Part shown: positions 4,470-34,750 of the stretch, piece by piece
Layout: each line of letters begins with the position of its first letter
Numbering within the stretch: position 1 is the stretch's first letter
Origin: Dioscorea cayenensis subsp. rotundata
Taxonomy: Eukaryota; Streptophyta; Magnoliopsida; Dioscoreales; Dioscoreaceae
NCBI RefSeq assembly: GCF_009730915.1
Contig: NC_052476.1
Span: forward strand, 1,116,001 to 1,180,000
Direction of reading: 5' to 3'
DNA length: 64,000 nt
The notes under the pieces: generated by a model
Told to the model about the DNA's origin: nothing
Databases searched by the model: none
What the model saw: the letters and a program-made list of their open reading frames with translations, nothing else
Program-made: the position numbers and the translations under genes

Positions 4470-4607
4470 ATGGCTGATGAGAAGTACCGGCAGGTGCACG
4501 GCCGCTACGTGCCACAACGCGGCATGATCCTCCGGCGTGCTGTCCGTGCCATTTTCACCAACGTCTACGTCCTCTGCTTTGGGAGAAACATTAGTAAGAA
4601 GAAATAA
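4470..4607 (+). CDS. Small Arg-rich peptide A (45 aa), A-D subfamily
   Basis: Intronless frame beginning MADEKYRQV and containing VPQRGMILRRAVRAIF at residues 14-29, then a hydrophobic run ending LCFGRN and a basic tail SKKK. The start was chosen because the homologous ATG is kept in all four A-D copies and sits in a purine-rich GATATAATGG context. The core is retained in three relatives within 15 kb, whereas flanking sequence has diverged, which argues for real coding. There is no classical signal peptide. The charge is strongly positive, with 9-10 Arg/Lys. Downstream sequence (to about 4870) matches the 3' flanks of B-D, so it is probably a conserved 3' UTR. I do not recognise an established name. 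Angiosperm short proteins with a P-x-R-G-x-[IV] core exist as far as I recall, but the function is unknown to me. Confidence 0.65.
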   Translation: MADEKYRQVHGRYVPQRGMILRRAVRAIFTNVYVLCFGRNISKKK

Positions 4608-4869
4608 TAAGCCATCTCCTCCTCTTGTATTGATTATATATATATATATATATATATGGATTGGTAGATGATACATGTTAGTATCATTCTTATTTTGTGT
4701 CATAATTATTATTATCATTATTATTATTATGTATTTAATTTGTAGCTTTTTTCTCTACTTGGTTATTGAAGTTCATGTTGTGTGAGACTCGGTATCTGTT
4801 TATTTAATCAAGTGTGGATTACTGTCATTTCTTTAATCAGTCTTTTCTTTGCAGCATCTTGTCTCTGTG

Positions 4870-5640
4870 CTCTTTTTGGCCATTTATTCTCTGAATCTTC
4901 TTCTTCTTTTATACTTCTTTTTTTTTTCTTCTTTTTTTAATTGAATTTGAGGGGTTTTTTTTCTTCATTAGATGTATTTATCTTATATGTATTTTTTTTT
5001 TCTCAAACATCTTCTTTATATTATATATATATATATAATTTGCGTGGTAGATCAAAGAATAAATTTTACAAAAGTGTGTATGTGATGATTCCTCGTGTGA
5101 ATATGATTTTTTAAAATAGAAATTTATTTTAAAATGTTTTCAAGATTCTTTTTGACAAAGGTGCCCGAGTCAAGCTATATATATATATCTATATTGGCAA
5201 AAATCACAAGCACCACTCATTGCTCTATCAAGGAGTTTGTTAAAGAACATATATGTACAATAATTCATTCGTTATGGTGGTTTATTAATCATCTAAGAAT
5301 TTATTAACTCGGTCATGTATCACATAAAATAATGAAAGTCTTATCACGTATACAATCAAAAAATTTTTAAAAACCAGTCCAAACTAATAAATTTCTCATG
5401 TTATTTAATCTTGGAGAGGAGAAATAAAATACCTCTCATTGGAGACCCATTTAAGCTATGTAAATAGTATTATAAATTATATATCAGTCATAAATAATAT
5501 TGTCATAGTAATTTACTAAAGTGCAACTACAATAAAAAAAAATAAATTATATATAATCAAATTGGAATTTGGTCTAGATTCTCCTTTTCGCACACCTTAA
5601 GTCAGTCCCTTTCAAATTCTCTTTGTTTTGTTGACCATTT
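4870..5640. other. No gene seen between gene A and R2 copy 2
   Basis: AT-rich sequence with poly-T and short TA tracts. I see no coding, RNA or transposon signature. Confidence 0.5.
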
Positions 5641-6130
5641 AACAGCTATGCTATATATTATTAATGATGCATTTCTATTTGTTCATATTCAATCATATAT
5701 TTATTGTTTTAATAATAAAAATTGTATTCATATTTATTTAAAAAAAAAATAATACTTCTCATTCTCCTAATCTTAGACAAAATTTTATTTATTTTAAATC
5801 ATTTATTTACTTTAAAAAAAACTAATAAATTAATTTCTCTCAAAAATCATTCAGTCAAATCAACTGTGATTAAAAAAATGAGTGAACATGCTCATCCAAT
5901 GTATGAATCTCTTTTGTGACCTTTGTCTCTGTTATCACTATTCACACTTGGAGACCTTTGAACTTCTGCCACATCTTTGTCCCAATTTTAGTTTTCTTGG
6001 TCTTTTCCTCAGCGACTATTAATTCCATTTAAATTATTTATTTATTTATATATTTATTTGAAGCATCATTTTTCAAACACAATTACTTTGTTTTATTCTA
6101 TTATGCTATGTAGTTTTCACTCGTTCCAAT
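5640..6130 (+). repeat. R2 flank block, copy 2
   Basis: Matches 2050-2640 and 10685-11480 through ATGAGTGAACATG, CACATCTTTGTCCCAATTTT, the TTTTCCTCAGCGACTAT-like string and GAAGCATCATTTTTC. It lies about 1 kb after gene A, as the third R2 copy does after gene B. This supports an ancestral gene-plus-R2 unit. Confidence 0.6.
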
Positions 6131-6379
6131 GTATTACTATGTCTTTTAAGAATAAATATATATAAAAAAATAAACATATTTATTAAATATAAATAACAAA
6201 TTCTCAATTATAGATGCGGGTTTACAATACAAACCTTATATATACGGGTTTACAATACAAACCTTATGAATAGACTAGACGATCAATTTTTGTTCTGTAG
6301 ACACACCTCTATTTGACCTTGCCTTTGTCGTCGCACTTGTAACATTTTATATATATATATATATATATATATAACTAGA

Positions 6380-33289: not shown

Positions 33290-34300
33290 TGAGATTCAAA
33301 AAAATTGATGAAATTGACAATAGAAAGGGGAAGGCAAAAAGAATGCAAAGAGAACAATAGAGACATGCTAATTTAGAATGAGAGGTTGGGAAGGAATTCA
33401 GTTAAACTTTCCCGGGAAAAACGGTTATGTTAGTTACATACATGTTTATTTATTTATTTACTTATTATTTTTATAAAAGTGTTTGGAAAATAAAAAAAAA
33501 CTAATAATGTAATAATTATATTATCTTCATGCAATGTTCTTGGACTTGAAAGAGCATTTGCGTATAATAATTTTGTACTTAATTAGAACAAGTCCTTGGG
33601 AAATGACTAGCTAGTGTAAACAATGTCCCACCAAAATGCTAATTGTCAAAGATTCTCTAAAAAACTATTACAAAAGTACTTAGTTTTTTTTTGTTTTTAA
33701 TATAATTTCTAGAACTTCATATTAACCTTCATTTGATTTAATTATTCATTTTTTCTTTTGCCATAAAATTCCCAATTTTTATATGAAGCCACGTATATAA
33801 AACTTAAGGCCCAAGCAACATGGTAAACTTTTTGCAAAATAATTCAATTAACACAGTAAAATAGTTTTTTTTTTCATCCTTGTTTAATAAAATGAATTTT
33901 TATATATAATAACCTAAATCTCTCATTCTCAACTGGGGCGCAGTTTTGTGCACATGCCCTGATATATATAATTATTGTGGCTTTTTTTTTAATAAATATA
34001 TAATAATTTGATTTTAATGTTATGATGCCTAAATATTTTATATGAAAAATACAAAATAGTTATTTAAACCTAATTTAAGACATTAAAAGAAAAGTAAAAT
34101 AAAATAAATGGTTCACAAGTAAAATTTTGAAAAAGAAAAAAATGATGTCATGGAAAGTAATTTTGTTAATTGTCAGGGTTGGGAAGTGAAAAACTGCTTT
34201 TATTAATAACAACTTAAAACCGCGTAACCGCGTGTTCTGCCAAGTAGTCGGACTTGGTTAATAAAGTTAGACGCGGAGAACACCAGACCGATCTCTTTCG
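33290..34300. other. Intergenic between kinase promoter and gene G
   Basis: Probably includes the kinase 5' leader and promoter (left) and AT-rich spacer. No further coding signal is seen. Confidence 0.4.
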
Positions 34301-34301
34301 A

Positions 34302-34307
34302 TATATA
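34302..34307 (+). promoter_or_regulatory. Possible TATA element of gene G
   Basis: TATATA in CGATATATACATG, about 70 bp before the start codon and preceded by a GC-richer stretch (34210-34290). The spacing is similar to genes E and F. Confidence 0.4.
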
Positions 34308-34375
34308 CATGTGTCGTTACTCCCATCTCCTTGGTACTCTATACTCACCGGCGGTGACACTAGCGAAGCTCGGAG

Positions 34376-34750
34376 ATGGCGGGAGCTATGGTTGGCGGCT
34401 CGGCTTCATACCCTCGGCTCATACCGCGCCGTGGAGCTGTTCTGAGAGCCGTTTTTAGCTCGATCTTCAATTCACTCATCGGCTTCTGCGCTCTTTGCGG
34501 CGGCGGCGGCGGCGGTGCTAGAGTTGAGCCGGCTGGTGAGCTGCCAAACGTTTACGGCGCCGGCGGAGAGATCGGAAATGGAACTCGAGCTTTGGAAAAC
34601 TATGCCGAGTTTGTTGTAATTTTTTTTTTTAATACTAGCGATAAGTTTTTAAGTCAGAAACATGCACAGATATTGGCCGTATCCATAAATTTAACAATAT
34701 CGTGCTTTCACTTAAGTTTTAATTTTTATTATTTTTATTATTTGATTTGA
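34376..34750 (+). CDS. Small peptide G, E-G subfamily, with long C-terminal extension (124 aa)
   Basis: Frame beginning MAGAMVGGSASYPRLIPRRGAVLRAV, then FSSIFNSLIGFCALCGGGGGG, a short linker and GAGGEIGNG. Up to there it parallels E and F, although it lacks their Arg-rich N-terminal run. Where E and F stop just after G-N-[DG], G has lost the stop and runs on about 45 residues through hydrophobic, T-rich DNA. The extension has no counterpart and is probably recent read-through. The start lies in CTCGGAGATGGC and aligns with E and F. It is GC-rich compared with its surroundings. Function unknown. Confidence 0.65.
   Translation: MAGAMVGGSASYPRLIPRRGAVLRAVFSSIFNSLIGFCALCGGGGGGARVEPAGELPNVYGAGGEIGNGTRALENYAEFVVIFFFNTSDKFLSQKHAQILAVSINLTISCFHLSFNFYYFYYLI

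Follow-up and report, generated by a model that had tools for sequence, protein, structure and literature searches.

A tandem array of small genes on C6

The window analysed here is a 64,000-nucleotide stretch of the Dioscorea cayenensis subsp. rotundata genome (C6:1116001-1180000, contig NC_052476.1), and it carries part of a tandem array of very small, probably genuine genes whose predicted proteins have a common P-x-R-G core; the plant genome searched for relatives comprises 584 Mb in 2249 contigs. A sequence-only reading of the window had earlier proposed seven intronless frames on one strand, and all seven (genes A to G, Table 1) are present, each running from ATG to stop. The core P-x-R-[G/S]-x-[V/I]-L-R is common to the seven, with P, R and L identical throughout and, as that reading also stated, Ser replacing Gly only in gene D. 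The copy number, by contrast, had to be revised from seven to ten, since three further copies (X, Y and Z) lie 1.6-10.7 kb to the left of the window, which extends the array to ten copies on one strand over about 45 kb. A family profile applied to the C6 stretch from 40 kb left of the window to 10 kb right of it detected no further copy above noise.

Starts and stops had been described as aligned within each subfamily, which is only partly the case: gene B is one codon short and gene C five codons short, both in frame, and gene G overruns the shared end. The frame of gene G continues for about 54 codons beyond the shared end motif GGE[VI]GN into AT-rich sequence, and this frame is the least certain of the set.

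A second cluster on C18 and distribution in the genome

Five intact copies and one degenerate copy are located on the minus strand of C18 (about 18.803-18.892 Mb). The span of this cluster was examined except for about 22 kb (18.8044-18.8266 Mb), and the number of intact copies is at least five. Whole-genome searches with seven protein queries (expectation value, E, up to 0.001 for one and up to 10 for the rest) covered the best-scoring candidates only and therefore give a lower bound; all matches listed, bar one, fall in the C6 array or the C18 cluster. The search with gene B, for example, run with an E limit of 10, yielded seven matches besides itself, of which the lowest-scoring (E 0.0365) is on C18, and the reversed B peptide yielded no candidates and no matches. 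The one exception, a weak match on C19 (E 0.655) without a P-x-R-G frame, was rejected as a family member. The family amounts to at least 15 intact copies in this genome, 15 of 16 copies are open, and P15, R17 and L21 (numbering of protein A) are invariant in all 15 members. Homologues with a conserved core do exist outside the original locus, but only on C18 of the same genome.

Table 1. Members of the small-gene family and the associated leader motif. Positions refer to the window unless a contig is given; aa, amino acids.
Feature	Location	Strand	Description	Basis
Gene A	4470..4607	+	45 aa, A-type, VPQRGMILRRAV..., C-terminal LCFGRN..KKK	Open reading frame, genome-wide family matches
Gene B	10059..10193	+	44 aa, A-type	Open reading frame
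Gene C	15197..15319	+	40 aa, A-type; 5-codon in-frame deletion directly N-terminal of core	Open reading frame
Gene D	19306..19443	+	45 aa, A-type; Ser in place of core Gly	Open reading frame
Gene E	27045..27281	+	78 aa, E-type, PRLIPRRGAVLRAVFSSLF, C-terminal GGGEVGN	Open reading frame
Gene F	29903..30142	+	79 aa, E-type	Open reading frame
Gene G	34376..34750	+	E-type; conserved part to GGEIGNGT (about 34585), AT-rich tail doubtful	Open reading frame
Copy X	C6:1105261	same strand as window copies	46 aa, A-type	Genome search with proteins A and B
Copy Y	C6:1111614	same strand as window copies	47 aa, A-type	Genome search with proteins A and B
Copy Z	C6:1114372	same strand as window copies	43 aa, A-type	Genome search with proteins A and B
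R1	C18 cluster	-	52 aa	
R2	C18 cluster	-	84 aa, extends beyond position of R3's stop	
R3	C18 cluster	-	48 aa	
R4	C18:18870660-18870779	-	167 aa, core then long Asn/His/Ser-rich (Asn-rich) tail	
R6	C18 cluster	-	177 aa, core then long Asn/His/Ser-rich (Asn-rich) tail	
Degenerate copy	near C18:18,867,091	-	stop codon N-terminal of core	
Leader motif CTGTTTCTGAACAG	4394-4407 and 4420-4433 (upstream of A)	+		Leader alignment, six A-type copies

Membership of one family was assessed with profiles that were each built from a single group, an all-member profile being circular, and that were scanned against the six frames of the DNA around both clusters. The A-type profile (7 rows) detected R1 (3.9e-7), R6 (2.1e-5), R2 and R3 (1.5e-4), G and E (about 6e-4), the degenerate copy (2.2e-3), and R4 and F (0.013), which places six of the eight other intact copies below 0.01. 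All ten C6 copies were recovered by the C18 profile (5 rows; E 4.5e-9 to 3.4e-4). The E-G profile (3 rows) detected R1 at 8.6e-7, R6 and R2 near 1e-3 and six A-type copies below 0.01, and at its weak end C (0.026), R4 (0.13) and R3 (0.26) stood together with one unrelated frame at 0.037. Ten rounds of shuffled frames per profile produced 1, 0 and 2 matches at E<0.05. A search pattern that described the core at codon level proved too unspecific to be of use (66/67 matches versus 142/133 in its control).

Coding evidence

Nei-Gojobori ratios of nonsynonymous to synonymous substitution (dN/dS) in the 21 A-type pairs range from 0.15 (Z-B) to 1.05 (Y-C), and the values from 0.76 upwards come from pairs with Y or C. 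Maximum-likelihood codon models returned an omega of 0.37 for X, Z, A, B and D (approximate p=1.0e-4 versus omega 1), 0.51 for all seven A-type copies (approximate p=1.1e-3), 0.53 for E, F and G (approximate p=5.2e-3) and 0.36 for a 33-codon core of 15 members (approximate p=1.4e-11). In the null fits the tree shape was taken over from the free fit and kappa was drawn from a small grid, and the sets were picked by protein similarity, so that the p-values are approximate and biased to low omega. The ratio among copies, which the sequence-only reading had singled out as informative, is below 1 overall (in four of four sets), though pairs that include Y or C reach 0.76-1.05; gene C in particular, with high values against X (0.95) and Y (1.05), is possibly under relaxed selection.

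Divergence at codon positions 1, 2 and 3 is 0.20/0.24/0.37 in six A-type copies and 0.16/0.12/0.52 in E-G, and the length differences of B and C preserve the frame. The guanine-plus-cytosine (GC) content of the seven window frames is 0.52-0.65, compared with 0.21-0.41 in their upstream and 0.23-0.30 in their downstream flanks (for gene A, 0.54 versus 0.40/0.28 in 300-nucleotide flanks), and a TATA-like site is found 53 nucleotides upstream of the ATG of gene E. The earlier proposal that these tiny genes form a family expanded in tandem is supported by these data, which indicate that the genes are probably coding and under purifying selection, and we consider it very probable, judging from the sequences, that the family is a genuine coding one.

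Flanks and mode of duplication

Flanking DNA, which had been regarded as mostly diverged, has not diverged everywhere, as conservation in the six aligned A-type copies extends over about 100 nucleotides of leader and over some of the trailer. Some BLAST blocks between copies extend beyond the genes, which suggests segmental DNA duplication rather than retrocopies. The leader motif CTGTTTCTGAACAG is found twice before A and twice before X, and once, in altered form, before Z, B, C and D; it is hairpin-like and may form a hairpin ahead of the A-type start codons. A leader intron (CAG/G before the start) was considered and dropped as too short.

C18 was also considered as a duplicated partner region of C6 and rejected, since the two have little sequence in common: apart from members of this family, 70 kb of C18 matched the C6 stretch only in copia-like sequence, in a repeat-like block and in one short segment at 49%. 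With the window kinase exon as query, no kinase match near C18:18.80-18.89 Mb was found among the best 150 of 952 candidates. The repeat-like block (window about 59900-62500) occurs twice in the window, and similar stretches (up to about 90% identity) are present in the C18 cluster near 18.876 Mb.

Family searches

The statement that the family could not be named agrees with our searches, which found no match in the curated family libraries. None of 12 proteins (the seven of the window and five others; X, Z and R6 lay outside the scan) exceeded the curated Pfam cut-off, and the four weak matches (E 0.078-0.27) were all below it. No match was obtained in NCBIfam, a bacterial/archaeal library, for 15 proteins, some of them shortened, or in Rfam for window 1-36000, and the PDB sequences gave a single non-significant match (E 1.1). 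Searches by sequence, motif and topic in the open-licence literature, which includes few subscription journals, returned nothing on this family, the topic results being judged by titles and the opening lines of abstracts. It may well occur as unnamed hypothetical proteins in other plants.

Predicted structure and layout

For protein A, AlphaFold (15 alignment rows) predicted a disordered N-terminus and one helix (16-44) directly after the core Pro, with a mean confidence score (pLDDT) of 70 and a best ten-residue block (21-30) at 87. For protein E (12 rows), the main helix was predicted at 25-47 (mean pLDDT 63, best block 87), together with two further short helices of low confidence outside it. 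The predicted layout is a disordered N-terminus, a P-x-R-G turn and one helix. Summed over the 15 helices, the hydrophobic moment lies above 2000 of 2000 permutations, the rows being related to one another, and single helices are significantly amphipathic in six copies only (R1-R4, R6 and Y) and not in the other nine. Nine of the 15 proteins (X, A, B, C, D, E, F, G and R1) have a Cys 19-22 residues past the core Pro. Over their first 60 residues, the 15 proteins carry a net charge of +2 to +11.

The best 19-residue hydropathy values are 0.6 to 1.9, in windows that start at residue 14-34 (C6 copies, R1-R3) or 35-49 (R4, R6). No N-terminal signal-like hydrophobic stretch was found by simple hydropathy in any of the 15 proteins, whose best windows all begin at residue 14 or later and thus indicate that a classical signal peptide is absent by this measure. 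Ideas of a PP1-docking or an IQ motif were dropped by eye.

Neighbouring genes

Tandem copies of EMP70/TM9 (endomembrane protein 70) genes occupy window 35266-45409 at a spacing of about 3.9 kb; two of their frames match PF02990 and a third does not. In window 46160-62736, aldo/keto reductase-like frames lie on the minus strand within blocks that are duplicated; one of these frames matches PF00248, and between the blocks is an apparent copia-type element (about 48.6-52.2 kb, labelled by eye). Exons of a PTI1-like kinase, also labelled by eye, are found on the minus strand at 31536-33182, and the best other copy of the exon among the best 150 of 952 candidates is 80% identical and located on C5. 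Upstream of gene A, a 57-amino-acid frame without a Pfam match is open on the opposite strand (4162-4335).

Proposed action and alternative explanations

The coding-family part of our interpretation is supported by the homology among copies, the preserved frames, the signs of purifying selection and, at the sensitivity used, the restriction of the family to two places in the genome. As the best reading of the sequences, we suggest a family, as yet without a name, of small intracellular proteins that are perhaps docked on a membrane. The explanation as a whole, in which single-exon genes for non-secreted small proteins have been locally duplicated and their products act as membrane-docked regulators, is offered tentatively, as possible rather than probable, and the docked-regulator part, which is drawn by analogy, is open to slightly greater doubt. 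Local DNA duplication would have generated the array of ten on one chromosome and the cluster of at least five on another. Each net-positive protein would have a disordered N-terminus, a P-x-R-G segment serving as turn and helix cap, and then one amphipathic to hydrophobic helix. This helix might lie on the cytosolic side of a membrane, anchored by basic residues, and S-acylation could provide a further anchor in copies with a Cys near the helix end. The docked peptide may then bind a protein associated with the membrane, for instance a receptor-like cytoplasmic kinase, and through it adjust growth or defence, much as ROT4/DVL peptides do with BSK kinases.

A number of observations weigh against this interpretation. 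Pairs involving Y or C reach dN/dS values of 0.76-1.05, a high GC content is unspecific (the 15 GC-rich islands in window 1-31400 comprise the six genes A-F and nine elsewhere), and A, C and F have no TATA[AT]A within 300 nucleotides of the start. The AlphaFold inputs were shallow (15 and 12 rows), with mean pLDDT of only 70 and 63, the hydrophobic moment is not singly significant in the A- and E-types except for Y, and the N-termini of R2 and R3 are acidic. The Cys near the helix end is missing in six of 15 copies (Y, Z, R2, R3, R4 and R6), so S-acylation cannot be a common mechanism. Cytosolic docking, the partner and the pathway are what we infer by analogy, and, homology to DVL having failed (see below), that analogy would rest on design only.

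Three other explanations deserve consideration. That the frames are conserved non-coding or decaying repeats, open by accident, would fit the conservation of leaders and trailers, the degenerate C18 copy and the pairwise dN/dS near 1 in some pairs, and the coding call is itself sequence-based; omega below 1, the excess of third-position divergence, the in-frame length changes of B and C, the 15 open copies out of 16 and the lack of an Rfam match in window 1-36000 make this very improbable. It is less easy to dismiss the idea that the proteins are soluble microproteins in which a basic amphipathic helix binds a partner protein such as calmodulin or a kinase without any membrane docking, an explanation that we consider unlikely on balance: the helices of Y, R1, R2, R3, R4 and R6 are singly significantly amphipathic, 11 of the 15 copies show hydrophobic spacings of the 1-5-10 or 1-8-14 kind (counted without a chance rate for comparison), and RGxxxR is seen by eye in several copies, but the spacings are missing in Z, B, D and R1 and the E-type helix is rather hydrophobic. 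The third builds on the idea of signalling or defence peptides in the sequence-only reading and takes the genes to encode precursors of antimicrobial or signalling peptides that would reach the extracellular space without the help of a classical signal peptide, for instance after wounding. Tandem expansion, small size and the cationic amphipathic helices of R2/R3 are compatible with it, but hydropathy indicates no N-terminal hydrophobic signal, no known mature-peptide signature was seen by eye, and conservation is concentrated in the N-terminal to central region and not in a mature peptide at the C-terminus. The suggestion of signalling or defence peptides is accordingly not supported, as by hydropathy none of the 15 proteins looks secreted, and this explanation appears rather improbable.

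Comparison with known plant peptide families

Plant peptide hormones (CLE, PIP, PEP and others) are encoded by small genes that are often arranged in tandem, whereas the proteins described here have neither an N-terminal hydrophobic signal by hydropathy nor, by eye, a C-terminal mature-peptide motif. ACRE75 and ACRE180 of Solanaceae are reported to be small, defence-linked proteins without signal peptides or a clear Arabidopsis orthologue, whose fusions localize to the nucleus/nucleolus, the endoplasmic reticulum or peroxisomes (PMC7821246). Compared by description only, they resemble the present family in being small and reported without a signal peptide.

Closer in design are the RTFL/DVL peptides (PF08137). 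Both families are small and basic, and the present proteins, as read from sequence alone, also appear to be encoded in single frames and, by hydropathy, to be without a signal peptide. In both families a patch of basic residues (ILRR in the A-type copies) precedes a hydrophobic stretch, after which a Cys often follows (nine of 15 copies here, and most Arabidopsis RTFL members). It might be asked, then, whether these genes are simply DVL/ROT4 members overlooked by Pfam, but this is largely refuted and can hardly be credited. None of the 12 proteins matched PF08137 at E up to 10 (HMMER filters drop most matches above 0.1), but the same model finds 14 places in this genome and matches two known DVL proteins at 1.9e-11 and 7.1e-10. 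The hhalign probability was 0.3% against these two and also against eight own-genome DVL proteins, 54 of 400 column shuffles equalled or exceeded the observed mean similarity, and RRC and CW, invariant in the eight own-genome proteins, are missing here. The cores differ as well (P-x-R-G-x-[VI]-L here versus Y-I-x-R-R-C-x-x-M-L-x-C-W in the eight), and the 14 DVL matches are mostly scattered over contigs, whereas the present family is clustered. ROT4/DVL is the nearest nameable design, a likeness in design without detectable homology.

Judging from its sequence, we take C42 of ROT4 to stand at the end of the hydrophobic stretch. ROT4 is reported to be non-secreted and S-acylated mainly on C42, to depend on S-acylation for its association with the plasma membrane, and to act via BSK5 on PEPR1 signalling (PMC10897394); RTFL/DVL peptides are also reported to bind BSKs in shade responses (PMC10613268). 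A bolder version of the analogy, in which plants would have a further family of S-acylated membrane peptides that are not secreted, one that evolved independently, converged on the ROT4/DVL design, expanded in tandem and tunes receptor-kinase signalling, is speculative and distinctly improbable. Genes of 40-80 codons are often missed in annotation, and here a single plant genome contains at least 15 intact copies of a family that has no match in the curated family libraries searched, yet shows a constant layout and signs of purifying selection. If these genes are expressed, they would provide an example of tandem expansion among peptides without a secreted look and a defined set for studying the roles of non-secreted plant peptides beyond ROT4/DVL, with members that perhaps act like a DVL.

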